The translations under genes and the position numbers were made by a program. The notes beneath the pieces are model-generated. The model was not told the DNA's origin. It searched no databases and saw nothing but the letters and a program-made list of their open reading frames with translations. A stretch of DNA of 64,000 nucleotides from a virus: the IMG/VR virus record IMGVR_UViG_3300017917_003093, positions 1-64,000 of that record; one strand, 5' to 3'. Shown here piece after piece: positions 2,490 through 42,406 of this stretch. Within the stretch, counting starts at the first letter, position 1. Each line of letters begins with the position of its first letter.

Positions 2490-3886
2490 TCGCCTCCCTG
2501 ATAAAGTCCTTGATAAGATTTCACCCAAGCTGTGCCGGTCCAGCGATATTGTATTTCTGTGGTGAGATTTGTAACATATTGGGTATTGTTGGGGCTGGAT
2601 GTGCTGTCAAAAGAGATTTGCCATCTCGTGCCATCGTATTCCACTATATCATTGGCATGAGCTACTAAGGGTTGATTATTGATGCCTTCCCAAGCATCAG
2701 GATTGGTCATGCCTGGATTGTCATAGGATCCAGTGGCCTGTGTGAGCAGATATCGTTGCCCAGAGGTAGCTGCTGGCAATCCATAACCGGGTCCACTGAG
2801 CAATGGATCAATCACCGCATCAATAGGCAACAGTGTGTTAGAAGGTACTGTGGCAGGGTTTACCGTGAACAACAAAAATCTATCATCGGTGGGATCAAAT
2901 GCTACGGTACCCGTAACTTCAGTACCATCGGGTTGTTCTAAGGTTACATAACTGATGCCAGGTCTCATGGTACCATACATGCTAACTACACCGGTCCACA
3001 ACAGATTGCTGTTAGGTGAATCTGCTGGTTCTAAACTGTCATTAGGCTCATCTACTACTTGTTGTTTTCTTAGTGCTTGCAATCTATTGTTGATCAACAA
3101 TACCTGATAGTTGTAAGGAGTGAATCTTTGGCGGGTGCCCAGCAACAAATCGCTGTTGGTCAATGATTCTGCAAGATCACCCTGTGGATCATACATGCTG
3201 GCAATGATGCGCTCAACCACACCTAGTTTCTTGACTTTGGCCGGCGGGGTAATCCAGATAGGCAAGCTAAAGGTCAGTGTAGTAATATCGATAGGGTTGT
3301 CTGTGCCTACTGGAATAGAGCGACTGGTGTATCTACTGTCCTTGAGATACAACACAGTAAGACTGGTCCAATCAATGTAATTGTCGGTGCTTTGTATCTC
3401 TAGACCAGGATTGAACAAGGTCAGGATCTGTTCTAACAACTGCCATTTTTGATTGGTATTGCTGGTCCATATGTCTAGATTAATGGTCATCTCATATGGT
3501 ACCGGCATGAGGCGTTCAATAGTAAACGCATTCCCTTGCGTAGTTTCGTAACTTTCGGTGTCAGGATCATAAGTTCTCTGACGCACAGCTATGTTGCTAA
3601 CAAAATAGGGTTCTTGCATTCTTGGACGATCATACTTGAGTTCTGTGATGTAAAAAGTCATCAACGGGGTTGATGGCATGTCGTTGGCTGAATTGTTTTG
3701 TATGATAGTTTGTGCCTGGCGACTGGCATCGCCATAACGCACCGGTACACGAATCAATGTATCTATTTCAGAACCAGGACCTTGCCCGGCCTGATTGGGA
3801 CCGTACTCAACATCAAAGTTTGAAAAGATTCTAGCAAACTGTAGTAAAAATCTACGTATCTGCCCGTCGTAAAAAAATTGTGCCAT
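2471..3886 (-). CDS. 15: Tail sheath stabiliser / tail terminator, gp15-like
   Basis: 471 residues. The N-terminal pattern (FFYDGQIRRFLLQFARIFSN, then LIRVPVRYGDASR, then PLMTFYITELKYDRPRM) matches the T4 gp15 family, which caps the tail tube and sheath and provides the joining surface for the head. T4 gp15 is 272 residues; here roughly 200 extra residues follow from about residue 270, including WTGVVSMYG and a Gly/Thr-rich segment that may be an added surface domain. It starts directly after the gp14 stop, with a CAGGACG ribosome-binding site inside the gp14 end. Assembly with gp14 and gp13 at the neck is expected. Confidence 0.8.
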   Translation of the reverse strand: MAQFFYDGQIRRFLLQFARIFSNFDVEYGPNQAGQGPGSEIDTLIRVPVRYGDASRQAQTIIQNNSANDMPSTPLMTFYITELKYDRPRMQEPYFVSNIAVRQRTYDPDTESYETTQGNAFTIERLMPVPYEMTINLDIWTSNTNQKWQLLEQILTLFNPGLEIQSTDNYIDWTSLTVLYLKDSRYTSRSIPVGTDNPIDITTLTFSLPIWITPPAKVKKLGVVERIIASMYDPQGDLAESLTNSDLLLGTRQRFTPYNYQVLLINNRLQALRKQQVVDEPNDSLEPADSPNSNLLWTGVVSMYGTMRPGISYVTLEQPDGTEVTGTVAFDPTDDRFLLFTVNPATVPSNTLLPIDAVIDPLLSGPGYGLPAATSGQRYLLTQATGSYDNPGMTNPDAWEGINNQPLVAHANDIVEYDGTRWQISFDSTSSPNNTQYVTNLTTEIQYRWTGTAWVKSYQGLYQGGEWSLVL

Positions 3887-31042: not shown

Positions 31043-31494
31043 TGTGGTACAGCAAGGTCGTAGCTGATCTAGGAAACATACCAGACTTCATAGCACACTA
31101 TGAGCGTGAGCTTGACGCGGCCAAACTTGAATGCCGCATTGGCGGGCTGATTGAGAAAAACATCACAGCGTTGCCCGGTATTACAGAACATCGTTTCAAT
31201 CAACTGCAAGAGATTGAAGCGGTTTTGAACTATCTCAATATACAACTCAGAAAAATACGCCGCAAGCACTTCCAGAAATATTTAGAAGGTTACGCTCGAG
31301 CTCTAGCCAGCCGAGATGCTGAAAAATATGTGGATGGCGAAGACGAAGTCATTGATTTTGAAACCATAATCAACGAAGTAGCTCTACTACGTAATCGCTG
31401 GCTGGGTATCATGAAAGGTCTGGATACCAAACAGTGGCAAATGGGGCATGTGGTGCGTTTGCGCACAGCAGGTATGGAAGACATACAGGTATGA
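31042..31494 (+). CDS. uvsY: UvsY recombination mediator
   Basis: 150 residues (T4 UvsY: 137). The helical pattern YERELDAAKLECRIGGLIEK, LPGITEHRFNQLQEIEAVL, YARALASRDAEKYVDGEDEV and LLRNRWLGIMKGLDTKQWQM matches UvsY from aquatic T4-like phages. UvsY loads UvsX onto gp32-coated ssDNA. Position two genes after UvsX supports the call. It overlaps the next gene by 4 nt, so the carbohydrate island is transcriptionally continuous with recombination genes. Confidence 0.87.
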   Translation: MWYSKVVADLGNIPDFIAHYERELDAAKLECRIGGLIEKNITALPGITEHRFNQLQEIEAVLNYLNIQLRKIRRKHFQKYLEGYARALASRDAEKYVDGEDEVIDFETIINEVALLRNRWLGIMKGLDTKQWQMGHVVRLRTAGMEDIQV

Positions 31495-32243
31495 AATTCA
31501 TACGACCCGGCGACAGCCATCGTCATAGTCTACAAACTCTCAATCAACTGTATGAGTATGATGATTTTATGGCCAGCATCCGTAGCATGGTTGATCTAGG
31601 GTGTGGTGATGGCGAAGATCTTGAATGGTGGGCCACAAGAACCACACGTGATGATTCACCTGAACCTTTGAACATACGTTGCACTGGTGTTGATCTAAGA
31701 TCGACACTGCCCATTATCCAACCCTATCTTAATGCCACCTATGTATCACAGAACTTTGAAGATGTTATAATACCGCATCCGGGCGGGTTTGATGTATTGT
31801 GGTGTCATGATGCTTTTCAGTATGCTATCAATCCCATAGAAACTCTCAGTCGTTGGTGGCATATGACCAGTGAAGGTGGTATGTTGGCCTTGGTCATTCC
31901 TATTACACAGTCGGTACATCATCGACAGATTTCTTATGTGCTACCCAGCGGTTGCTATTATCATCATACCATGGTCAGCCTGATCTACATGTTGGCCACA
32001 TCTGGCTGGAACTGTTCTCAAGGGTTCTTCAAACAAGAGCCTACAGATCCATGGATCCATGCAGTAGTATACAAAAGCAACATTGAACCCATGAGACCAC
32101 AAGAAATCACATGGCATCGCTTGTCTGAACTAGGATTATTGCCAGAATCTGCACAGGCCAGTGTGTACGCACACAACGCTTTAAGGCAACAGGATCTGGT
32201 GGTGCCTTGGATTGATCACAGTTTCCGCAGCATGGCCTTATGA
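31491..32243 (+). CDS. Class I SAM-dependent methyltransferase
   Basis: 250 residues. Motif I VDLGCGDGE at 34-42, an acidic strand CTGVDLR for motif II, and FDVLWCHDAFQYA with WHMTSEGGMLALVIP as motifs IV to VI give a typical Rossmann methyltransferase. The acceptor is unknown; the neighbours (FkbM, glycosyltransferases) suggest a sugar or lipid-linked glycan. It is the first gene of the carbohydrate island and is coupled to UvsY and to the next gene by 4-nt overlaps. Confidence 0.78.
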   Translation: MKFIRPGDSHRHSLQTLNQLYEYDDFMASIRSMVDLGCGDGEDLEWWATRTTRDDSPEPLNIRCTGVDLRSTLPIIQPYLNATYVSQNFEDVIIPHPGGFDVLWCHDAFQYAINPIETLSRWWHMTSEGGMLALVIPITQSVHHRQISYVLPSGCYYHHTMVSLIYMLATSGWNCSQGFFKQEPTDPWIHAVVYKSNIEPMRPQEITWHRLSELGLLPESAQASVYAHNALRQQDLVVPWIDHSFRSMAL

Positions 32244-32875
32244 TCAATGACGTTGAACAACGTCAAGGTTGGTGGTGGCCTCGAACAGATCAACGCTGTT
32301 GGGATTACATGCAGACTCATCCAGATGTGCCTCAACTGATCACAGAATTTGTACCCGTAGATCAACGACGTGTGGTAGTTCAAGCTGGTGGCAACTGTGG
32401 ATTTTATCCACGACAGTACGCTCAATTGTTTGACAGAGTGTATACCTTTGAACCCGACTGGCTAAACTTCTATTGTCTTAACCTCAATGTGCCAGACTCC
32501 AACGTAGTCAAGATACAATCTTGTTTGGGAGACATACATCAAACAGTTGGGCTCAGCATCAAGAGCGTGAACCGAGGTAAGAACTTTGTAGATGGTGCTG
32601 GCGCCTACCCTGTGTTGCGTATTGATGATCTTGCCTTGGATCAGTGTGATCTCATACAGCTAGATATCGAAGGCTATGAATATTATGCATTGTTGGGCGC
32701 AATAGATACCATCAAAAAGTTCCATCCAGTGATCACTGTAGAGGTCTGGGACCAACTCAAAAATCGATTTGATCACAACATAAATCAAAAACTTGATGAC
32801 TTGTTAAAGTCCCTAGGTTATGACCTAGTCAAGATCCTGTATGATAGTGACAGAATATATCAACATCGAGCATGA
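32240..32875 (+). CDS. FkbM-family methyltransferase (copy 1)
   Basis: 211 residues. VVVQAGGNCGFYPRQYAQLF (45-64) is the SAM-binding start, YTFEP at 68-72 the acidic loop, and IQLDIEGYEYYALLGA the FkbM signature. FkbM enzymes O-methylate sugars in glycans and natural products. A second FkbM gene lies at 38559-39209 on the other strand. It is within a run of five 4-nt-overlapping genes (31491-34328). Confidence 0.8.
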   Translation: MINDVEQRQGWWWPRTDQRCWDYMQTHPDVPQLITEFVPVDQRRVVVQAGGNCGFYPRQYAQLFDRVYTFEPDWLNFYCLNLNVPDSNVVKIQSCLGDIHQTVGLSIKSVNRGKNFVDGAGAYPVLRIDDLALDQCDLIQLDIEGYEYYALLGAIDTIKKFHPVITVEVWDQLKNRFDHNINQKLDDLLKSLGYDLVKILYDSDRIYQHRA

Positions 32876-33540
32876 AAAGTTATATCATCCGACTCAAACA
32901 ACATGAATTCAGTTCTGACATAGCGCAACAATGTGTGAGCCGCGCCCAGCAGTTTGGTCTTGATGTAGAGTTTTTTGACGCAGTCACTGGTAAGCAAGCT
33001 CTAGAGATATTCCAACATCACGGAATACAAAAATATCCACACAAACTCAAAAGAAACACAGACGGGGTGCAAGGATGTGCCTGCAGCCATTACCTATTAT
33101 GGAAACAGTGTGCTCAAGATCAGACGCCTTATCTGATACTAGAACATGATGCTTACATGATTCGTCCCTTGCCAAACATGTTGGACAAGTTTGATCATGT
33201 GCTGAAACTGGATCCTTGTGATCCGTTTGCACCCACATATGATTATGACACCGCACAAGATCATGGCATCAATATTGTACGTTATGATACTGGATGGGGT
33301 TACAAAAAGAAAGCGGCTCCTTATGGTGGCTATTTCAGAGGTGCCTGGGCCTATATAATCAAACCCAAGGCCGCGACGATGATCACACAGGCCATGGCTA
33401 ACAACGGATGGGTGCCAGCAGACAAGCAGTTTGGAGAAACATTGTTAGATCTAAAAACCACGATGTCTACAGTGTTTCGTATACATCCTACCTATAACAG
33501 TGCCAACATTGAGCAGTTGAGCCTAACACGTAACTTATGA
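32872..33540 (+). CDS. Glycosyltransferase family 25-like
   Basis: 222 residues. The pattern of GT25 (LPS galactosyltransferase/collagen GT type) is visible: MKSYIIRLKQ, VEFFDAVTG, GVQGCACSHYLLWKQC (65-80), LILEHDA (88-94) and RGAWAYIIKPKAA. The EHD replaces the more common EDD metal-binding triad. It probably adds a hexose from a UDP-sugar to LPS or another surface glycan. Coupled on both sides. Confidence 0.78.
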   Translation: MKSYIIRLKQHEFSSDIAQQCVSRAQQFGLDVEFFDAVTGKQALEIFQHHGIQKYPHKLKRNTDGVQGCACSHYLLWKQCAQDQTPYLILEHDAYMIRPLPNMLDKFDHVLKLDPCDPFAPTYDYDTAQDHGINIVRYDTGWGYKKKAAPYGGYFRGAWAYIIKPKAATMITQAMANNGWVPADKQFGETLLDLKTTMSTVFRIHPTYNSANIEQLSLTRNL

Positions 33541-34328
33541 TCAAATATGCCTTTGCCCGAGACATTGCTGGCGAGCATGTGCGCTGGTCTCTCGAACCTT
33601 GGCGCCAGCGAGGATTGACCATATTTGATCGTCTGTGCGATGTGCCAGATAGTTATGTGGTAGTAGTCAGCCACTTCGCTCCATGGTGGAACCCTTTACA
33701 ACAATACATAGCCGAAGGCCGGCCTTGGATAGAAATCGAATACGGCTACTGGGGGCCTGATTCTCCTCGCCGAGAAACACGCCGAGTGACCTATCGTGGG
33801 CATCATAATATGATTATGAGATCTGTACCTTACAGCCGCACTGATCTATTTCCACTTCCTGAGCATCAGCCTTGGAGAACCACCGCTGGGGATTATGTAC
33901 TGGGAATACAGCCAGTGGAAGAAATCTTGCAACAACGCACCGGAGAAAATCTCCAACAGTTTAGGCAACGCCTGACCAACTCTATACGTCCTTATTGGTC
34001 AGGCGAGATACGCTGGCGCAAAAAACGCGGCGGCGCAAAACCTGGTCGTTTTGACAGTTTTGTAGAGGAGTTGCACCGGGCACACGCTGTGGTTGGAGAG
34101 CGTACCATGGCCTGTGTAGAAGCATGCCTGCTGGGGGTACCGGGCTACACCACGGATTCCAGCATGACCACTTTATTAGTGGGCGGTATAGAAAATCTAG
34201 CCACTCCGATCTGCCCGGATAGATCTGCTTGGTGGGAGCATATTTGCTGGAGCCAGTTCAATCGTGCCGAGTTTGATACTGCTGTACCAGCAGATCTAGT
34301 AGAACAATATCAGATAGCCGATCATTAA
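33537..34328 (+). CDS. GT-B-like phage glycan protein, paralogue 1 of 5
   Basis: 263 residues. The C-terminal half has the family core: HAVVGERTMACVEACLLGVPG (183-203), then IENLATPICPDRSAWWEHICWSQFN. The same order S/T..A.EA.L.G.P, then DRxxW...SQF recurs in the genes at 35791, 36589, 37481 and 40048. It resembles the sugar-nucleotide half of GT-B enzymes (KpsS/surface carbohydrate type). This copy has RWRKKRGGAKPG in place of the TxRPxxxRP strand, so it is the most diverged. Function is inferred as glycosyl transfer. Confidence 0.55.
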   Translation: MIKYAFARDIAGEHVRWSLEPWRQRGLTIFDRLCDVPDSYVVVVSHFAPWWNPLQQYIAEGRPWIEIEYGYWGPDSPRRETRRVTYRGHHNMIMRSVPYSRTDLFPLPEHQPWRTTAGDYVLGIQPVEEILQQRTGENLQQFRQRLTNSIRPYWSGEIRWRKKRGGAKPGRFDSFVEELHRAHAVVGERTMACVEACLLGVPGYTTDSSMTTLLVGGIENLATPICPDRSAWWEHICWSQFNRAEFDTAVPADLVEQYQIADH

Positions 34329-34334
34329 CGGCGT

Positions 34335-34341
34335 ATAAATA
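34335..34341 (+). promoter_or_regulatory. Late promoter box, full T4 consensus TATAAATA
   Basis: TATAAATA at 34334-34341, identical to the T4 late consensus; 5 nt before the ATG at 34347. Confidence 0.7.
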
Positions 34342-34346
34342 TCGGC

Positions 34347-35111
34347 ATGAAAAAGATTGTTTTAGTAACCGGCGGCTTTGATCCTTTGCACAGTGGGCAT
34401 ATTGCCTATTTTAACGAAGCAAAAAAACTAGGAGACATCTTGGTAGTAGGAGTCAACAGCGATGCTTGGCTCACACGCAAGAAAGGCGCACCTTTCTTGC
34501 CACTGCTGGAACGCACTAACATCGTGCGCAATCTGCACATGGTCGATTATGTGATAGATTTTGATGATTCGGATGGCTCTGCTCGACGTGCCATTACCAT
34601 GGTTCGTCAAAGTTATCCCCGAGACACCATTGTGTTTGCCAACGGAGGCGATCGCACCGACAACAACATTCCAGAGATGGATGTAGCCGATGACAATGTG
34701 AAGTTTGTGTTTGGTGTGGGAGGATTCAACAAAGCCAACTCCAGTTCATGGATTTTAGAAGAATGGAAAGCACCTTGTACCAAAAGACCTTGGGGATACT
34801 ATCGAGTGTTACACGATGTGGCAGGCACCAAGGTCAAAGAACTCACAGTGGAGCCAGGTCAAAGACTTAGCATGCAACGTCATCAACAGCGGGCCGAGCA
34901 TTGGTTTGTTTCGGAAGGCACAGCCACAGTCTACACCATTGACAGAAAAAGTGATGCTGAACTCTTGGGAGAGTTTGGTACACATCAGCACATACATATA
35001 GATCGTGGCGAATGGCATCAACTGTGTAATCTCACGGATGAGCCTTTGCGGGTGGTAGAAATACAGTACGGCGATAGTTGCGTGGAAAATGACATAGAAA
35101 GAAAACCATGA
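34347..35111 (+). CDS. Cytidylyltransferase-cupin fusion
   Basis: 254 residues. Residues 1-140 are a nucleotidyltransferase of the RfaE/TagD type: VTGGFDPLHSGHI (7-19, the GxFDxxHxGH motif), VVGVNSDAW and, near 130, KANSSSWIL in place of ISSTxxR. Residues 147-254 are a type II phosphomannose isomerase-like cupin: RPWGYYRVL, KELTVEPGQRLSMQRHQQR, EHWFVSEG and IDRGEWHQLCN. Together they suggest activation of a sugar phosphate with CTP or ATP plus isomerisation or sensing, to supply donors to nearby glycosyltransferases. I know of no standard name for the fusion. Confidence 0.82.
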   Translation: MKKIVLVTGGFDPLHSGHIAYFNEAKKLGDILVVGVNSDAWLTRKKGAPFLPLLERTNIVRNLHMVDYVIDFDDSDGSARRAITMVRQSYPRDTIVFANGGDRTDNNIPEMDVADDNVKFVFGVGGFNKANSSSWILEEWKAPCTKRPWGYYRVLHDVAGTKVKELTVEPGQRLSMQRHQQRAEHWFVSEGTATVYTIDRKSDAELLGEFGTHQHIHIDRGEWHQLCNLTDEPLRVVEIQYGDSCVENDIERKP

Positions 35112-35794
35112 CACCTATTCCAATTTTCATAGGGTATGATCCTAGAGAAGCAGTGGCTTATCATACCTGTGTCAACAGTATAATCCGACATGCCAGCCAA
35201 CCAGTGGCTATCATGCCCTTGGCATTGAATTTGTTTACCGACTACACAGAAACCCACACTGACGGATCAAATCATTTTATCTATTCTAGATTTCTAGTAC
35301 CTCATCTCATGAGTTATCTAGGATGGGCTATATTCATTGATGGAGACATGATCCTACGCGATGACATCGTGAAACTTTGGAATCTCCGAGAAGGCAACAA
35401 GGATGTCATGGTAGTCAAGCATGATTACAAGACTCGCATGCCAATAAAATATCTTGGTTCCAAAAACGAAGATTATCCACGCAAAAACTGGTCGAGCGTG
35501 ATCTTGTGGAACTGCTCATCTTGGCCCAACCGGAGACTCACTCCAGAATTTATACAATCGGCTACCGGAGCACAACTACATCGTTTCTCTTGGGTGACCG
35601 ATGATCGCATAGGTGAATTGCCCATTGAATGGAACTGGTTACCGGATGAATTTGGAGCCAACCCTGATGCCAAGCTGTTGCACTATACCCTGGGTACACC
35701 TTGTTTCCATGAGTTTGCTGACACTCCGCAAGCAGAGGAGTGGCACAGAGAGCACATGCTCACAGATTACTGTCTACAACGCACACAAAAATGA
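35108..35794 (+). CDS. Glycosyltransferase family 8-like
   Basis: 228 residues. IFIGYDPREAVAYHTCVNSI opens a GT-A fold; FIDGDMIL holds the DxD metal site at 78-80; SSVILWNCSSW and ELPIEWNW follow as acceptor and donor loops, and KLLHYTLGTP gives the late His of retaining GT8 enzymes. It likely transfers a hexose to a surface glycan. Coupled to its neighbours by 4-nt overlaps. Confidence 0.77.
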   Translation: MTPIPIFIGYDPREAVAYHTCVNSIIRHASQPVAIMPLALNLFTDYTETHTDGSNHFIYSRFLVPHLMSYLGWAIFIDGDMILRDDIVKLWNLREGNKDVMVVKHDYKTRMPIKYLGSKNEDYPRKNWSSVILWNCSSWPNRRLTPEFIQSATGAQLHRFSWVTDDRIGELPIEWNWLPDEFGANPDAKLLHYTLGTPCFHEFADTPQAEEWHREHMLTDYCLQRTQK

Positions 35795-36603
35795 TTGATC
35801 ACCCCGATCAAGTGTTGTGTATTGATCGCAAATCCCCGCACAGCACAGTTGACCCAAGACAGACGGCATTTGTCAATAGATTTGCTGCAGGATGTCATGG
35901 AGTAGTGACCAGTCTTATAGAGGCCCGCAGTGCTCCTTTGTCCAATCCTTGGTGCATACGTGGCATGAAATATGCGTTGGCAGTGGCCGAATGCATAGAC
36001 TCCAAACGCACATTGTACTACATCGACAATGGGTATTTTGGCAATCAAGACAAAAAAATCTATTTTAGAATCATCAAAGACGATGTGCATGACACTCGGC
36101 CCATTATAGCTCGAGACCGAACAAGATTGGATCTTTGTCAGATAAATCTAAAAAAGTTTACCACTGGAAGAAAAATCTTAATAGCCCCGCCCAGTGCAAA
36201 AAGTTTTACCATGTGGGCCATTGATCAGGATCAGTGGATTCAAGAAACTATGGACGAAATCAAACGTCACACAGATCGGCCTATTGAAATACGCATGAAA
36301 CGTCCTAGGACTGAACGCTTGGCTGTGGATACCATGGAGCAGGCTCTAGCAGATGACATACATTGCCTAGTGACCTACAACAGTGTGGCAGCATGTGAAG
36401 CCATAATGCTGGGTAAACCTGCCATCACTTTGGGACCAAATGCAGCCTGTCAACTATCATCCCATCGCATTGAAGACATAGAAACACCCCACATACCTTC
36501 ACTAGATGAACGCGAAGCATGGCTTCGCCATCTCAGCTACAGTCAGTTTACGTTTGATGAAATGAGCAACGGATACGCCTGGCGTATTCTAAATGAACGG
36601 TAA
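35791..36603 (+). CDS. GT-B-like phage glycan protein, paralogue 2 of 5
   Basis: 270 residues from the ATG at 35791 (ATGA with the previous stop). Family motifs: HTDRPIEIRMKRP, then HCLVTYNSVAACEAIMLGKPA, IEDIETPHIPSLDEREAW and LSYSQFTFDEMSNGYAW. The order matches the other four paralogues, and the S/N-x-EA...G-x-P stretch resembles the nucleotide-binding end of GT-B glycosyltransferases. The 3' end converges with and overlaps the next paralogue by 15 bp. Confidence 0.58.
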   Translation: MIDHPDQVLCIDRKSPHSTVDPRQTAFVNRFAAGCHGVVTSLIEARSAPLSNPWCIRGMKYALAVAECIDSKRTLYYIDNGYFGNQDKKIYFRIIKDDVHDTRPIIARDRTRLDLCQINLKKFTTGRKILIAPPSAKSFTMWAIDQDQWIQETMDEIKRHTDRPIEIRMKRPRTERLAVDTMEQALADDIHCLVTYNSVAACEAIMLGKPAITLGPNAACQLSSHRIEDIETPHIPSLDEREAWLRHLSYSQFTFDEMSNGYAWRILNER

Positions 36604-37488
36604 GAATCGCTGATAGATCGCACCGGTTGCGCTTTCCTCGTCAGTCCAGTGTGCAGCGCTGAGATCGTGCAACCATTGTGTTCTATCTGGCATAACTGGT
36701 GATTCGATTTGATTCAAGTCTTGGTTGGCCACAGACCAGGCCACACAATCATCATCAGTGGCAAACACAGGAATACCAGCCAACGCTGCTGCTACACTGC
36801 TGGAACTGTTGCAAAATACTGCTGCCCAAGCTCCTGCTAGATCTTGTTGTAGACTGCGACTTGGTGCACTTTGGCTTACTCCCGACAATGCAGTCAGCTC
36901 TTTTAGGTCCATGTGATGTTTTGGGTGTGGACGTATCACAATGGGTCTGGTGGTAATGGATCTCAATCGTCGCACAGTCTGCTCGGTCCAATGAGTCATA
37001 TCCGTTCCTTTCATTGACCAACCTCCGTCGCGTTGTAGGCACACTAATATATGATCTCCACGATCTCTCCAAGGGCGTAGATCAAGTTCCAGATGTTGTT
37101 TTATGCGGTGCCATTTAGAAGCATCACTGTTGGTGTTGGCATAGTTGTTGGTGTTGTAAAACACTCCGTCAAGACTGTAGCGTAAAAAATAACTTTCAGG
37201 ATCTGCAAACTTAAAACAACTGGCATCAACAGGCATGACATGATTGCCTGTTCGTCGTTGATGGTCTATCACATTCTGTCGTAGTTGTATGTGTGGTCCA
37301 CGTATGGTAGTACCAACCCAACCCAGTATCACAGCTAATCTACAAGGTACTACCTGTGTCTGTGTTTGAGTCAACACCCGAGCACCTTGAGCCTGGGCAC
37401 CAGTAACAAAAGCTCGCAGTACTTCAACTTTGCGATTGCGGTCAGAGATCCTGGGTAAACTAGAAAGATAAACTACAACATCATACAT
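36589..37488 (-). CDS. GT-B-like phage glycan protein, paralogue 3 of 5
   Basis: 299 residues. The N-terminal half has VLRAFVTGAQAQG and RLAVILGWVGTTIRGPHIQL (DUF-like Rossmann segment). Family motifs follow: TTRPIVIRPHPKHH, AAVFCNSSSSVAAALAGIP, VMPDRTQW and LSAAHWTDEESATG. RPHPKH is the clearest version of the R-P-H-P motif that binds phosphate in GT-B/CMP-sugar-type enzymes. Its start overlaps the end of paralogue 4 by 8 bp, so the two are co-transcribed leftward. Confidence 0.62.
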   Translation of the reverse strand: MYDVVVYLSSLPRISDRNRKVEVLRAFVTGAQAQGARVLTQTQTQVVPCRLAVILGWVGTTIRGPHIQLRQNVIDHQRRTGNHVMPVDASCFKFADPESYFLRYSLDGVFYNTNNYANTNSDASKWHRIKQHLELDLRPWRDRGDHILVCLQRDGGWSMKGTDMTHWTEQTVRRLRSITTRPIVIRPHPKHHMDLKELTALSGVSQSAPSRSLQQDLAGAWAAVFCNSSSSVAAALAGIPVFATDDDCVAWSVANQDLNQIESPVMPDRTQWLHDLSAAHWTDEESATGAIYQRFLPFI

Positions 37489-38557
37489 GATAACGTTTTG
37501 TCAACTCCAAGGCAGTTCCGTCAAACATTTCTTTTTTGGTGAATTGGCTGTAGCTCAATGCACACAACCAGTTACCGATGGACCCACGATATAGGTCATT
37601 GATGTCTGATATTCGAGTGCGAGCCACAGATTGTGAAATGTGTTGGTTCAATGTGATGACAGGAATCCCGGCCCATACCGCTTCTATGGCAGAACAACTG
37701 GCATCGACAACTACACAATAATAATCGGATTCTCTTAGATGATTGTAAAGATTGTCACGAGTTTTACGATCAGGATTCTTGGGTCTAAACACCACTGGTC
37801 GATTGGTGTGTAACTGTAGTTCTGCCAGCACACGATGCTTCCATTGTTCTAGACTGGTGCCAAATAACTGATGATGAGATTGGCTGTTTTCGATAACTAA
37901 AACAGCCTCACCGTCGCGCCTCCAAGGTGACGGCATGCTGGGCAACAGATGTAATCTATCAGCAGGATAGTAGATTTTTTTGCCTAGAGCATGGTGTATA
38001 TGATTGGCTACCAGTCTATGAAAAGTTTTGGCACCAGTTAAAAAGTTGGTGTAACCAGTATCAACAAACCAAAATGGTAACTGATTGGCCATGCGATGTT
38101 GCAACAATGTTTCGTTGTTGAGTATGTTTCTTATCAATACGTTGCGATCGTCTGGTATCGGATCTCCGGAAATGGTCCATATTGGATCATCAGTGAACTG
38201 GGGAGCAAGATTTTTTATAAAATCTTTTTTAGAAGACTTGAGATACAGATCTATCAGATATTGATGATCTATGCCCAGATCATCGAACTTGTTAGCCAAC
38301 CAGCGGATCACAGGACGATATTTGTTTTTGTATGCTCCAACCACTTCGTCTTTGTAGCATTCGACATCCTGTCTTAACAGTTGATTGACTGTGGCAAAAT
38401 CCACTTCGATCAGTCCAGATTTGACCTGTCGTAGTTGCATCTTGTCAAGGTACTGGGTGGTATTAGCCCAGGAAGGTCGTAGTTGGTTGAGATGTTCGGA
38501 TATGAGCTGTTTGGCCAACCCAACCACGGCCTCTTCTCGGTTCAGTACAAGATACAT
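37481..38557 (-). CDS. GT-B-like phage glycan protein, paralogue 4 of 5
   Basis: 358 residues, the longest copy. About 90 extra helical residues at the N terminus precede the shared part: HTNRPVVFRPKNPDRK, CVVVDASCSAIEAVWAGIPVI, IGNWLCALSYSQFTKKEMFDGTA. The SQFTxxE..xGxA ending is nearly the same as in paralogue 2 although the genes lie on opposite strands. It follows the FkbM gene by 1 nt. Confidence 0.58.
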   Translation of the reverse strand: MYLVLNREEAVVGLAKQLISEHLNQLRPSWANTTQYLDKMQLRQVKSGLIEVDFATVNQLLRQDVECYKDEVVGAYKNKYRPVIRWLANKFDDLGIDHQYLIDLYLKSSKKDFIKNLAPQFTDDPIWTISGDPIPDDRNVLIRNILNNETLLQHRMANQLPFWFVDTGYTNFLTGAKTFHRLVANHIHHALGKKIYYPADRLHLLPSMPSPWRRDGEAVLVIENSQSHHQLFGTSLEQWKHRVLAELQLHTNRPVVFRPKNPDRKTRDNLYNHLRESDYYCVVVDASCSAIEAVWAGIPVITLNQHISQSVARTRISDINDLYRGSIGNWLCALSYSQFTKKEMFDGTALELTKRYHV

Positions 38558-38558
38558 T

Positions 38559-39209
38559 TTACCAACCCAAGATTACGTCGTTTCTTATACGGTCTAGCTC
38601 TCGTGCGCCCCATTGCTTCAGCAGATCTACCGCTTCATATTGTGTAAAACGTGTTATGCCAGTGTCTTTGTGCAGTTTTTGTTCCACTACCATGATTGGT
38701 CGATGGGTCTTGATGGTCTGTTCTGCGCCTAGCAGTATGTTGTATTCAAATCCTTCGCAATCAATTTTGCAATAATCAAACTTGGGCAATGCCAGAGCAT
38801 CCAGCCGGTGCATGGGTATGCTTCCTTGACCTCGGCTGTCTAGGTTCACATGACTGTGTCCGGTGTTTTCTGCTGTGATGTTCATGTCTATCATGGTATC
38901 TTCATTGCCCAATGCACATTCACGTAGATCTAGATTGTCTCGAGGTACATTTAGTTTCAAGCATTGTCTAAAATCAGCTACAGGTTCAAACGCAATGACT
39001 TGATCAAAGTACAAAGACAAATCTCTACACCATAGTCCTACATTGGCACCAATGTCTACAGCGATGCCTCTATTGGGAGTGAGTTCAATACTACGTCGAC
39101 GCACAGGCTCTTGATATACTGCACCACCACCTTTTTTGATATTTTTGGCTAGCATTCCTGCGAAGTGGGTGTCTTGGTCAGGAAACCACCATCCGTGAGC
39201 TTGATACAT
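38559..39209 (-). CDS. FkbM-family methyltransferase (copy 2)
   Basis: 216 residues. AVDIGANVGLW at 50-60, VIAFEPVADFRQCLKLNV (71-88) and YCKIDCEGFEYNILLGAE form a textbook FkbM pattern. It is only moderately similar to copy 1 (VQAGGNCGFY in place of VDIGANVGLW), so it probably acts on a different sugar position. Middle gene of a leftward four-gene unit. Confidence 0.83.
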   Translation of the reverse strand: MYQAHGWWFPDQDTHFAGMLAKNIKKGGGAVYQEPVRRRSIELTPNRGIAVDIGANVGLWCRDLSLYFDQVIAFEPVADFRQCLKLNVPRDNLDLRECALGNEDTMIDMNITAENTGHSHVNLDSRGQGSIPMHRLDALALPKFDYCKIDCEGFEYNILLGAEQTIKTHRPIMVVEQKLHKDTGITRFTQYEAVDLLKQWGARELDRIRNDVILGW

Positions 39210-39210
39210 G

Positions 39211-40035
39211 TTATCGTCTTCCTTTGCTTAACACCTGAGACCAGTAAGGGTTGTCTTGATGCATGACTACTTCTTTGGGTTTAGAATGTCCTTCATTCTT
39301 TCGATCTCCTTTGACATGGTCCATATATCGTCCTAGTTCTGAATTTATAAAAGGATGCCCGGCCAGACCCTTGTCGTTGACACTGGGATTTAGATTAAAA
39401 AACTTGTTGTGATTTTGATATCTTTTGCGTACCACGTCCCAGATATAACTGTCGTGCCATTCTCGTTCTTCAAATATTTTATCAGTGTTATACATGCTCA
39501 CAAACTCCTTTATGAAGTTTCGTGTCTGTGCGTGATCTAGATTGTAACCTACCCAACCGCATTCGCTGTGATAACGTTCGCCGCGCCCTAGATAACTGAT
39601 CATGGCATCCGAGGGACAAACAGTTTCTAACCATAACAGCGGCACCGGAGCATGAGTGTGGGTGTCTGCGTCCAACCAAATCATGTAACCACCGTCTAGA
39701 GACTTTTCACACAAGCTGACTGAAAATACTTTGTAACAGAATCTCACTGCATTCCATCTGAATGCTTTTTTTGGATTCCAGGTTTCGGCAGGTCCAGCTT
39801 GACCATGTGCCAGCGGGTTGTTTCGGTGTCGTTCCACAAAGGATCTAAGATTTGGGCTCACGGCCAATAGATCATATACATGAGTATTGGACCTGGTGAT
39901 ACGAGGCTGACAGTTTTCAGCGCAAACTACAAGATCTACTTCGGCAGGCCACAGGCGCTCAAAAGTTTCTATCATGCGCTGACCGTATTGTTTTAGACCT
40001 GATTCGTTGAAGGAGGTAACTACAGTATATTTCAT
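39211..40035 (-). CDS. Putative GT-A glycosyltransferase
   Basis: 274 residues. YTVVTSFNESGLKQYGQRMI starts a GT-A-like Rossmann region; MIWLDADTHTH has the DxD at 122-124; NPKKAFRWNAVRFCYKVFS and GWVGYNLDHAQTR follow. The pattern is familiar from glycosyltransferases carried by T4-like aquatic phages. Donor and acceptor are unknown. A minus-strand late box ends 6 nt before the ATG. The gene is divergent from paralogue 5, only 12 bp apart. Confidence 0.68.
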   Translation of the reverse strand: MKYTVVTSFNESGLKQYGQRMIETFERLWPAEVDLVVCAENCQPRITRSNTHVYDLLAVSPNLRSFVERHRNNPLAHGQAGPAETWNPKKAFRWNAVRFCYKVFSVSLCEKSLDGGYMIWLDADTHTHAPVPLLWLETVCPSDAMISYLGRGERYHSECGWVGYNLDHAQTRNFIKEFVSMYNTDKIFEEREWHDSYIWDVVRKRYQNHNKFFNLNPSVNDKGLAGHPFINSELGRYMDHVKGDRKNEGHSKPKEVVMHQDNPYWSQVLSKGRR

Positions 40036-40041
40036 CCTGGA

Positions 40042-40048
40042 TATTTAG
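40042..40048 (-). promoter_or_regulatory. Late promoter box CTAAATA (minus strand)
   Basis: Six nt before the ATG at 40035. Its last base is the first base of the divergent GTG start at 40048. Confidence 0.6.
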
Positions 40049-40908
40049 TGATCAAATCAGTGGCCTATTTTCCTTTGCAGTGTGCTCAAAACAGCGGTCC
40101 AGTCATGACGGCTGTATTAGATTCCCTGCATCGCGCAGGTATACACGCCCAAGAAAACAGCCGGTCTTCAGATGCGGCTATAATATGGTCGGTACTGTGG
40201 GCAGGCCGCATGGCCCCAAATCAAGAGGTATGGAATCATTACAGACAACTCAATCGGCCTGTGATAGTGATAGACGTGGGTGCCTTATATCGAGGTGAAA
40301 CCTGGAAGATAGCTCTGAACTCTATCACAGCCCAGGGCTATTATGGACATACCGAAAACCTTGACTGGGATCGCCCGCGTCGTTTAGGCATAACAGAAGC
40401 TGTGAACTTTACCAGAAATCCCAACATCGTGATCGCAGCACAGCATGCTCAAAGCCTACAGGTGGCTGATCTGGTCAGCGTAGAATCATGGATAGTGGAG
40501 CAGGTGGAAAAACTTAGGAAAGTCACTGACCGACCCATTGTAGTCCGACCGCATCCTAGAAGTGCATTGAACACAGCCAAACTGGCAAGTTTGCCTGGTG
40601 ATATTGTTATTGAACAACCTAAAAAAATCATCAATACCTATGACAGTTACAATCTAGTATTTGATTGTCACGCTCTTGTCAATCACAACTCAGGCCCGGG
40701 AATACAGGCTGCGTTGGCAGGTACCCGTCCCATAGTGGATACCAGCAGCCTGGCACATCCTGTGTCGATCTCGATTCAGGATATTGACAAACCTTACAAC
40801 ATAGATCGACACCAATGGTTGGTTGAAATTTGTCACACCGAATATACCTTAGAAGAAATCAAACAAGGCCTATGGCTACAACGATTACAAACTCAACTGG
40901 ACCTATAG
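40048..40908 (+). CDS. GT-B-like phage glycan protein, paralogue 5 of 5
   Basis: 286 residues, GTG start. The N-terminal half (PVIVIDVGALYRGETWKIAL) aligns in style with paralogue 3. Family motifs: VTDRPIVVRPHPRS, HALVNHNSGPGIQAALAGTRP, ISIQDIDKPYNIDRHQW and ICHTEYTLEEIKQG. R-P-H-P and the G-P-G-x-Q-A-A-L-A-G stretch suggest a GT-B donor site. No promoter is evident for this start, which abuts a divergent late box. It overlaps the next gene by 37 bp. Confidence 0.6.
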   Translation: MIKSVAYFPLQCAQNSGPVMTAVLDSLHRAGIHAQENSRSSDAAIIWSVLWAGRMAPNQEVWNHYRQLNRPVIVIDVGALYRGETWKIALNSITAQGYYGHTENLDWDRPRRLGITEAVNFTRNPNIVIAAQHAQSLQVADLVSVESWIVEQVEKLRKVTDRPIVVRPHPRSALNTAKLASLPGDIVIEQPKKIINTYDSYNLVFDCHALVNHNSGPGIQAALAGTRPIVDTSSLAHPVSISIQDIDKPYNIDRHQWLVEICHTEYTLEEIKQGLWLQRLQTQLDL

Positions 40909-41606
40909 ACTGCGCCTGTGTGATACATGGCACAGCCTATGATTGGACCTATGTAGAACGTCTGCACAACATGTTGAGTAGACACATCACTCCAGGTATC
41001 CGACTGCATGTGTATACCGAATCAGAAAGACCAGTTCCTGCTCCTATGATCAAACATGAGCTTGAACCCTGGAATATAACTCGGGCTCGTCGCGGATGGT
41101 GGTACAAGATGCAGATGTTTAATTCTGCGCATCACTCTGGTCCGTTGCTATATTTTGATCTGGATACCGTGATAGTCAGCAACATTGATTGGATATGGCA
41201 ACAACCATTGAAATATTTCTGGGCAGTGCGTGATTTCAAATACCTCTGGCGCCCAACACATACTGGTATCAACAGCAGCGTGATGTGGTGGGATACTTCA
41301 AAGTATCACAAAGTTTGGCAAGATTTTTGTCAACAGGATCTACAACAGATTATGCGTCGTTATCACGGAGACCAAGATTATATCACCCAGGCGGTGGCCC
41401 AGAATCAACGTAGATTTTTACCTCAAGAACGAGTGCTGAGTTGGCGATGGCAATGCCAAGATGGTGGTTATGATTTCCGGCGCCGTCGAGGGCACACACC
41501 GGGCACAGGCACCACGCTCACCGACATGGCCAGTGTTCTGGTGTTTCATGGCAACCCCAAACCAAACCAAGTAGCAGATAAATTGGTACAAGCCCACTGG
41601 TGCTAA
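40872..41606 (+). CDS. Putative GT-A glycosyltransferase (second)
   Basis: 244 residues from the ATG at 40872. CACVIHGTAYDWTYVERLHN, the GWWYKMQMF segment (75-83), LLYFDLDTVIV with DLD at 96-98, and INSSVMWWDTS are typical of a phage GT-A family. The 37-bp overlap with the upstream gene is unusual in this genome but supported by the unbroken motif set. Last gene of the carbohydrate island. Confidence 0.68.
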   Translation: MATTITNSTGPIDCACVIHGTAYDWTYVERLHNMLSRHITPGIRLHVYTESERPVPAPMIKHELEPWNITRARRGWWYKMQMFNSAHHSGPLLYFDLDTVIVSNIDWIWQQPLKYFWAVRDFKYLWRPTHTGINSSVMWWDTSKYHKVWQDFCQQDLQQIMRRYHGDQDYITQAVAQNQRRFLPQERVLSWRWQCQDGGYDFRRRRGHTPGTGTTLTDMASVLVFHGNPKPNQVADKLVQAHWC

Positions 41607-41612
41607 TAAATA
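41606..41612 (+). promoter_or_regulatory. Late promoter box ATAAATA
   Basis: Begins in the TAA stop of the preceding gene; 17 nt before the TTG start at 41630, with AGGAG at 41619-41623. Confidence 0.6.
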
Positions 41613-41629
41613 GAATCCAGGAGACAACA

Positions 41630-42406
41630 TTGATAGAAAACAGAACTTATAGATTTTATGGTGTCGGGTGTGGTGTCACTCCGGTGTCGGTTACTGCCAC
41701 AGTGGGTGGTGATCAAGTATTTTCCGGCACGGTGCCCACACAGGATATCGATATCAAATCGCCCCCGTCGGCCAGCGAAATAAGAACAGTATTGTTTGAA
41801 ATAGCAAACAGTCGTGTCTATGGAACTCAGTTTCAAGGCAATGTTCCTGTCAAGTTGGAGGTCTCTGGTGGGGATGGCATAATCCTGGGGTACATAGAAT
41901 CAAACTGGTATTCTGGAAAAAGGAAAACAGACACCAAAGCAGGACAACCGGACAAATTCAATCTATGTTATTACGGTGTTCCAGCCAACAGCGAAACTAC
42001 CACAGATCCCAGATCTAGCGTGACTATCAATGGTGAAATCCAGGTTCCGCCCATGGTACCTTCTACCGGGTGTTGGAGATGGGTAATACCCACTCCTTGT
42101 ACCATCACTCACGATTGGAACATTGGTATAGGACAAGTTGGCGAAGTGTTGGGAAATATCGAATATTTTGCCGGAGACAGTTCCACTACTACGTTTGCTC
42201 TGCGTCAAGTGGTTCGATCATTGGATGACATTGAAGTTTCTTTGATATTAGAACCTTATGTACCTCCTGCACAGTTTGATACTCCACTGACTCCGGGAGT
42301 GGATTACACAGTGTCCGGCAACATGTTGACCTTCACAGTTCCACCACCGCCACCGCCTATGCCCGAATATGACGGCGTGCGAGTGACCTACAAAACCAAT
42401 CAATAA
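41630..42406 (+). CDS. Late structural-type protein, unknown
   Basis: 258 residues with a TTG start at 41630, chosen because AGGAG lies 6 nt upstream; an in-frame GTG at 41600 lacks such a site and overlaps the previous gene. The sequence is beta-rich with no Cys motif of note: YRFYGVGCGVTPVSVTATVGG, VLFEIANSRVYG, WRWVIPTPCTITHDWNIG and an end containing PPPPPPMPEYDGVRVTYKTNQ. The last segment resembles a beta-hairpin fibre or tail knob domain. A virion protein is inferred from the late promoter and composition. A terminator follows the stop directly. Confidence 0.55.
   Translation: MIENRTYRFYGVGCGVTPVSVTATVGGDQVFSGTVPTQDIDIKSPPSASEIRTVLFEIANSRVYGTQFQGNVPVKLEVSGGDGIILGYIESNWYSGKRKTDTKAGQPDKFNLCYYGVPANSETTTDPRSSVTINGEIQVPPMVPSTGCWRWVIPTPCTITHDWNIGIGQVGEVLGNIEYFAGDSSTTTFALRQVVRSLDDIEVSLILEPYVPPAQFDTPLTPGVDYTVSGNMLTFTVPPPPPPMPEYDGVRVTYKTNQ

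Follow-up and report, generated by a model that had tools for sequence, protein, structure and literature searches.

Five glycosyltransferase-like paralogues of a phage glycan island belong beside the retaining beta-Kdo transferases and lack their nucleophile

Introduction

Why would a phage keep five diverged proteins of one glycosyltransferase-like family in a single island, and what chemistry would they perform? The question is raised by a 64,000-nucleotide stretch of DNA from a large tailed phage (the window), positions 1 to 64,000 of the 66,506-base IMG/VR record IMGVR_UViG_3300017917_003093. A sequence-only reading had proposed that the window carries an island of five GT-B-like paralogues, with KpsC among the candidate relatives. 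Retaining beta-Kdo transferases are defined by a QXXXD motif that holds the nucleophile and by a (K/R)XHP site that binds CMP (PMC12887879, PMC10148158), and the double displacement of KpsC and WbbB has been described as the only case so far among well-studied glycosyltransferases (PMC12887879). Here we establish by computation that the five are homologous, together with their fold, the active-site signatures of their clades and the conserved place that they occupy in a glycan-assembly island.

Results

All five genes were found where they had been placed. The core paralogues are P2 (35791..36603, + strand, 270 aa), P3 (36589..37488, − strand, 299 aa) and P5 (40048..40908, + strand, 286 aa); P4 (37481..38557, − strand, 358 aa) is an accessory paralogue, and P1 (33537..34328, + strand, 263 aa) is the fifth. 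Their kinship, for which profile comparison had been named as the test, is confirmed: an iterated profile built from each recovers the other four by round 2 (E 1e-13 to 1e-79), so that every pair is linked, and these profiles gather about 400 relatives. Searched with P3, the whole record gave exactly these five places and no sixth copy; the four besides P3 scored E 1.4e-13 to 1.7e-4. Pfam and PHROG scans of P1–P5 returned nothing above chance, and phmmer found no match to P5 among PDB sequences. The overlapping starts that had been described do exist as overlaps, although not start to start: P2 has a start/stop overlap with the gene that precedes it, P3 has one with P4, and P2 and P3 overlap end to end.

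In many phage contigs relatives lie, as here, with uvsX on one side and a uvsW-like helicase on the other. Among 50 complete islands, P3 and P5 are carried by all 50 and P2 by 47, with P4 in 11 and P1 in nine. In the tree, P1, P3, P4 and P5 are well-supported clades and P2 is nearly so, and each gene groups more closely with the one that occupies its island position in other phages than with its own neighbours. Local duplication had been suggested, but a recent one is not supported; the clustering by island position indicates that P1–P5 are five old orthologous clades. In phages of three other types, relatives are found among structural genes: the CcrColossus relative adjoins tail proteins, that of MW202713 adjoins the terminase, and that of pUSDA31-2 lies between portal and tail genes. 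The last, the Bradyrhizobium match, is a phage-plasmid. The uncharacterised CcrColossus K4JVV7 and gp185 and gp187 of Pelagibacter phage Mosig match the family profiles in sequence; by fold comparison alone, Tetraselmis virus 1 proteins that are likewise uncharacterised (e.g., A0A2P0VNK4) match at TM 0.62–0.76.

No clear cellular member of the family was found in pattern-limited scans of bacterial and archaeal genome contigs with the P3 and P2 alignments, the diversity of the whole family's 108-row alignment having ruled it out for this purpose. With the P3 alignment there was no match. The P2 alignment gave three matches, two on phage-like contigs of a Neomarinimicrobiota MAG with a uvsW-like helicase beside the island and one on a Woesearchaeota MAG contig.

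The GT-B-like character and the link to KpsC, both anticipated, were borne out by fold matches of the AlphaFold models of P3 and P2 (pLDDT 95.4 and 95.9), with P1, P4 and P5 placed by homology only. The best PDB match of P3 is KpsC 6mgc (Z 15.4, 3.5 A, 242 aa) and that of P2 is KpsC 6mgd (Z 11.8, 4.4 A, 222 aa); KpsC, WbbB and KrkA rank ahead of other GT-B entries for both models. The modified GT-B fold of P3 and P2 is thus held in common with the N and C modules of KpsC (GT107) and the N modules of WbbB (GT99) and KrkA (GT140). A profile of 108 family members matches WbbB (5FA0/8CSB) with E 0.0016, in the stretch that spans HP and NSS. The record has no match to PF05159 (Capsule_synth), and the best window match to PF20471 (DUF6716), in P2, scores 10.5 bits where the curated cut-off is 27; among the 108 members, 14 match PF05159 weakly (best E 1.7e-5) and 17 match PF20471 weakly (best E 1e-3). 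Against KpsC, HHalign gives modest probabilities (P2 50%, E 1.6e-4; P3 30%, E 5.4e-4; P1, P4 and P5 lower), and the residue mapping can therefore be trusted only at points on which several independent alignments concur. The family of P1–P5 belongs next to GT107, GT99 and GT140, in the beta-Kdo-transferase superfamily. P1–P5 differ from those enzymes in being single phage modules of 263–358 aa without kps export genes.

Profile alignment mapped the KpsC motifs onto the five proteins. P3 and P5 retain the RXHP and the Gln of QXXXD that KpsC, WbbB and KrkA possess, whereas the Asp nucleophile of those enzymes is present in none of P1–P5. In P3, RPHP (R186-P-H188-P189; codons 36922..36933, − strand) stands for the (K/R)XHP CMP site and QRDGG (residues 152–156; 37021..37035, − strand) for QXXXD, with Q152 kept and an invariant Gly, G156, at the nucleophile position. 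P5 has Q132, S136 at the nucleophile position and R167-P-H169-P170. P1, P2 and P4 have neither the HP His nor a conserved equivalent of the QXXXD Gln: P2 has P134/S138 at the Gln and nucleophile positions and R168-x-K170 at the HP site, P4 has N224/H228 and R258-x-K260, and P1 has no QXXXD and R161-x-K163 in place of RXHP. The T(x)RP(I/V)xxRPxP motif previously assigned to four of the five holds for four in its T(x)RP(I/V)xxR part, its literal RPxP part being found only in P3 and P5 (RPHP); P4 reads RPKNP there, P2 RMKRP and P1 RKKRGG.

These states are clade-specific. The nucleophile column is Gly in 98/98 P3 and Ser in 86/86 P5 proteins, and is varied, never Asp, in P1, P2 and P4; RXHP is kept in the same 98/98 and 86/86; and Lys or Lys/Arg replaces the His in P1 (R-x-K, 40/40), P2 (x-K/R, 115/115) and P4. 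As a control, the Asp of QXXXD and the other defining motifs are intact in all 13 KpsC-like modules gathered. At the position of the general base, KpsC Glu66, all five clades carry Asp or Glu: D88 in P3 (an acid in 98/98), D76 in P5 (in 86/86), D166 in P4 (in 46/46), D79 in P2 (in 113/113 aligned) and E68 in P1, which is among the P1 positions conserved in at least 96%. The base differs in place even among known members, and in KrkA, where the K/R of (K/R)XHP is replaced, it comes from another element (PMC12887879); the general-base residue is therefore the least certain of our assignments. Five phage relatives, found in islands of this kind and in a podovirus, keep the complete signature, EQDRHP; the window's record has no paralogue that carries it, and neither do most islands. 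Divergence in the N-terminal half, noted before, is present but not confined there, as the C-terminal (donor) half also differs at conserved positions. With clear clade-specific changes at the positions to which the donor nucleotide binds and at which the sugar–enzyme bond is made in KpsC and WbbB, altered acceptor specificity would probably be an incomplete account of how the paralogues diverged.

In the island (31434–42406), the five lie beside other glycosyltransferases, methyltransferases and a sugar nucleotidyltransferase. To the left of P1 lie a class I SAM methyltransferase (31434..32243, +; Pfam Methyltransf_11, 24.8 bits, above cut-off), an FkbM-family methyltransferase (32240..32875, +; PF05050 E 4e-10, TIGR01444) and a GT25-family glycosyltransferase (32872..33540, +; PF01755 E 5e-19). 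Between P1 and P2 are a nucleotidyltransferase (HldE C-domain/TagD-like) fused to a ManC-type cupin (34347..35111, +; PF01467, PF01050; TIGR02199 80 bits, below cut-off) and a GT8-family glycosyltransferase (35108..35794, +; PF01501 E 5e-8). Between P4 and P5 are a second FkbM-family methyltransferase (38559..39209, −; PF05050 E 4e-17) and a putative GT-A-like transferase (39211..40035, −), suggested by a WLDADT motif only, with no Pfam or PHROG match, whose family occurs in 46/50 complete islands. Beyond P5 lie a phrog_1962 glycosyltransferase (40872..41606, +; PHROG E 8e-25), listed from 40830 but more probably starting at the ATG at 40872, and, at the right end, a beta-rich protein of no assigned function (41600..42406, +; family in 16/50 complete islands), speculatively a candidate glycan acceptor. 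The only inverted repeats that could flip the P3–P4 pair are short and imperfect (at most 22 nt at 82%), which gives no support to a recombinational switch. The T4 late promoter sequence TATAAATA occurs at chance level.

Discussion

Considered as a whole, the data make it fairly probable that P1–P5 are active GT-B enzymes of the superfamily working on one phage-specified oligosaccharide, with a virion protein as the likeliest acceptor. They would be soluble glycosyltransferases, each adding a different sugar. Since RXHP is kept in P3 and P5, their donor is probably CMP-activated (or CDP-activated); P1, P2 and P4, with Lys/Arg for His, probably use another leaving group. A CMP-sugar synthetase gene was found in only one of 12 longer relatives, and a CMP donor would thus have to be the host's. 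With the Asp nucleophile gone and an Asp or Glu kept at the base position, transfer would proceed by direct single displacement, with inversion, and not by double displacement through a sugar–enzyme adduct. On a more tentative view, to which we give somewhat less than even weight, the Asp nucleophile gave way to Gly or Ser in two or more branches and the CMP-binding His to Lys/Arg in one.

The missing Asp could instead mean that the five are no longer catalytic and serve as glycan binders or as a scaffold for complete-signature enzymes, and an accessory secretion protein that is itself GT-B-like, Asp1 (5vaf), aligns with the predicted fold of P3 and P2 too. We consider this improbable: Q, R.HP and the base-position acid are strictly conserved in P3 and P5, and the complete-signature partner is absent from this record and most islands. 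If the five are active, the acceptor would most likely be a virion protein and next a host surface glycan. In the group of the window phage, the island belongs to the replication module (uvsX/uvsW) and has no structural genes beside it, which counts against a virion acceptor. This place would allow early or middle expression and speaks for a rival reading, in which the same enzymes alter host LPS or capsule and so block superinfecting phages. Characterised superfamily members do make capsule and LPS (PMC12887879, PMC10148158), and Iyer et al. 2021 proposed the same role for jumbo-phage sugar clusters, described as combining paralogous glycosyltransferases, a HIGH nucleotidyltransferase and cupins (PMC7824862), all of which are present here too. 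The complete clusters described there have an NAD-dependent epimerase/dehydratase, whereas no Pfam match to one was found among the island genes; nor do P1–P5 and their active-site divergence appear in that cluster description (PMC7824862). A host-envelope role nevertheless seems the less likely of the two, as no flippase, polymerase or lipid-carrier gene was recognised in the island, no strong transmembrane segment was found in its proteins by hydropathy, and relatives in the three other phage types lie among late structural genes.

The T4 beta-glucosyltransferase glucosylates phage DNA, and its gene adjoins uvsX. The position of the island beside uvsX recalls that gene order, and by analogy the glycosyltransferases here might decorate phage DNA; virus glycosyltransferases that hypermodify DNA are known from work cited in PMC12619734. 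The FkbM-type methyltransferases and about nine glycosyltransferases suggest a longer glycan, however, and the thymidylate synthase/hydroxymethylase (PF00303) that makes the acceptor base in a T4-type module had no homologue in the window's record and 12 longer relatives (three of 320–344 kb), 13 records of which most are fragments. A role in DNA modification is thus unsupported, and we regard it as very improbable.

Oligosaccharide synthesis by active P1–P5 remains our preferred reading, and if the nucleophile was lost as proposed, the phage arrays would display, on one scaffold, natural stages of transfer that run from a covalent adduct (retaining) to direct displacement (inverting), with complete EQDRHP members still in related islands alongside those without the nucleophile. 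An unannotated gene family, listed mostly as hypothetical protein in many phage contigs, gains a name. With scaffold, Gln and CMP site kept, the nucleophile replaced and complete relatives alongside, the family opens a direct question: can a retaining glycosyltransferase become an inverting one by the loss of one residue?

The five proteins share a predicted fold and part of a donor site with beta-Kdo transferases

The five genes that the sequence-only reading had grouped as GT-B-like paralogues are all present: P1 (33537-34328, +), P2 (35791-36603, +), P3 (36589-37488, -), P4 (37481-38557, -) and P5 (40048-40908, +). When P3 was searched against the whole 66,506-base virus record, matches fell at exactly these five places and no sixth family copy was found. 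Jackhmmer searches of every ORF in about 210 related loci converged to one common set of about 406 proteins whichever of P1-P5 was the query, and each query retrieved its four paralogues within two rounds, which clearly upholds the proposed kinship. The motif described for them stands in part: literal RPHP occurs in P3 and P5 only, and the stretch reads RPKNP in P4, RMKRP in P2 and RKKRGG in P1.

No convincing Pfam or PHROG match was obtained for any of P1-P5. Among 108 diverse family members, weak matches were found to Capsule_synth (14 members, best E 1.7e-5) and DUF6716 (17 members, best E 1e-3), and the stretch with HP and NSS was where the family profile matched the WbbB Kdo-transferase domain sequence (E 0.0016). 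AlphaFold modelled both P3 and P2 with high confidence (mean pLDDT 95.4 and 95.9, respectively). For each model, KpsC ranks first among solved structures, with WbbB and KrkA next and the other GT-B proteins below them; for P2, the KrkA matches (Z 9.2-9.4) are level with the best unrelated GT-B matches (Z 9.2). P3 aligns with KpsC 6mgc at Z 15.4 (3.5 A, 242 residues) and P2 with KpsC 6mgd at Z 11.8 (4.4 A, 222 residues). Foldseek on BFVD returned four Tetraselmis virus 1 proteins (TM about 0.7-0.76) and one Caulobacter phage protein (TM 0.62).

In KpsC, WbbB and KrkA, the general base is a Glu, the Gln of QXXXD binds the Kdo carboxylate, its Asp is the nucleophile, and (K/R)XHP binds CMP, with K/R replaced in KrkA (PMC12887879, PMC10148158). 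The Glu and both motifs are present in 13 of 13 KpsC-like modules taken from plasmid records. When the profile of each window clade was aligned with these modules, the equivalents fell at D79/P134/S138/R168/K170 in P2, Q152/G156/R186/H188/P189 in P3, D76/Q132/R167/H169/P170 in P5, N224/R258/K260 in P4 and E68 in P1. Pairwise HHalign runs gave modest probabilities, so the residue assignments depend on consistency across runs, together with the HMMER hit on WbbB and the common fold.

In the clade alignments, all 98 P3 sequences have Gly at the nucleophile position and all 86 P5 sequences have Ser, and the P1, P2 and P4 clades have no conserved Asp there. The HP His is kept in all of these P3 and P5 sequences and is replaced by Lys in P1 (40/40) and P4 (45/45 aligned) and by Lys or Arg in P2 (115/115). 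An acid is kept throughout the clades at the position aligned with the general base. Thus, the Asp nucleophile of KpsC, WbbB and KrkA has no counterpart in any of P1-P5, and assignment as retaining beta-Kdo transferases fails for all five on this defining feature, whereas the common scaffold and a partly shared donor site stand.

When about 420 members were aligned together, five phage proteins showed the complete Glu-Gln-Asp-Arg-His-Pro set. Four of them (two in locus L072, one each in L075 and L226), from islands of the window's kind, form a P6 clade sister to P3; the fifth, from podovirus MW202713 (H46), is placed beside P5 with weak support. On a tree with a KpsC outgroup, the His-to-Lys/Arg change occurs once, on the side holding P1, P2, P4, Mosig, Bradyrhizobium and CcrColossus gp128. 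The nucleophile position must have changed state at least three times; the direction of change (loss or gain) is presumed, since the outgroup is very distant.

The paralogues are older than the divergence of these phages

Local duplication had been suggested as the origin of the five genes. In a maximum-likelihood tree of 77 members, P1, P3, P4 and P5 form strongly supported clades, with P2 at 93/88, and each window gene shown is closest to the equivalent gene of other phages (66-67% identical in the columns kept). The paralogy is therefore older than the split of these phages, and a recent local duplication is not supported.

Across 50 loci whose island is bounded on both sides, the contigs not being independent samples, P3 and P5 are present in 50/50, P2 in 47/50, P4 in 11/50 and P1 in 9/50, with two to six family copies per island and most often three. 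Twelve contigs of 94-344 kb each have all their family copies at a single locus, and the island repeatedly lies between uvsX and a uvsW-like helicase. In some phages, the window included, the P4-P3 pair runs opposite to the genes around it; this two-gene cassette (36589-38557) is inverted in the window and close relatives compared with L028, L188 and L195, and no long inverted repeats flank it.

Gene content, carriers and acceptor of the island

Besides the five GT-B proteins, the window island (31434-42406) encodes GT25, GT8 and phrog_1962 glycosyltransferases, a putative GT-A protein (WLDADT), three methyltransferases (one of class I, two of FkbM type) and an HldE-C/TagD-like nucleotidyltransferase fused to a ManC-type cupin (34347-35111). 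Such content would be expected for an O-methylated oligosaccharide. The fusion recurs across these islands, being present at 128 loci. The 39211 gene (-) and P5 (+) start back to back, with only 12 bases (40036-40047) between them. By hydropathy, no island protein has a strong membrane segment.

Related islands vary. Some (L096, L104, L086 and relatives) also encode a redoxin-domain protein and an O-methyltransferase of TylF type, neither of them a usual neighbour of glycan genes. In L226 and L227 (PBPT01000082.1, PBPT01000016.1), filed under a Candidatus Neomarinimicrobiota MAG, the island adjoins a uvsW-like helicase; these are probably phage contigs binned with that MAG. L226 also encodes an island protein with a GSCFAERL motif (2920-3879, GSCFA-like). 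The 67 kb plasmid record of Bradyrhizobium elkanii pUSDA31-2 (L232), in which GT9 and methyltransferase genes lie close to a family member, is a phage-plasmid, since it carries portal, tail tube and tape-measure genes.

Jumbo-phage clusters of the same general kind are known and have been read as altering the host surface (PMC7824862), a role that the window island might share. Modification of DNA is unlikely, because 13 records yielded no thymidylate synthase/hydroxymethylase homologue. A virion protein is favoured as acceptor, with moderate confidence, because family relatives in three other phage types sit among structural genes. A beta-rich protein (41600-42406) that borders the island on the right, present in 53 related loci and without a Pfam or PHROG family, is possibly such a virion protein and glycan acceptor.

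The superfamily and the island type are already known; the phage family itself and where it is placed, together with the clade-wise nucleophile loss and the HP-site change, are new within the open-access literature, as far as our searches reach. Beside the predicted fold, motif states, conservation and synteny observed here, we infer a mechanism in which P1-P5 would be catalytically active, P3 and P5 using CMP- or CDP-activated donors and P1, P2 and P4 a different leaving group. Transfer would proceed by direct displacement with the retained base-position acid, and the sugar would be received by a component of the virion.
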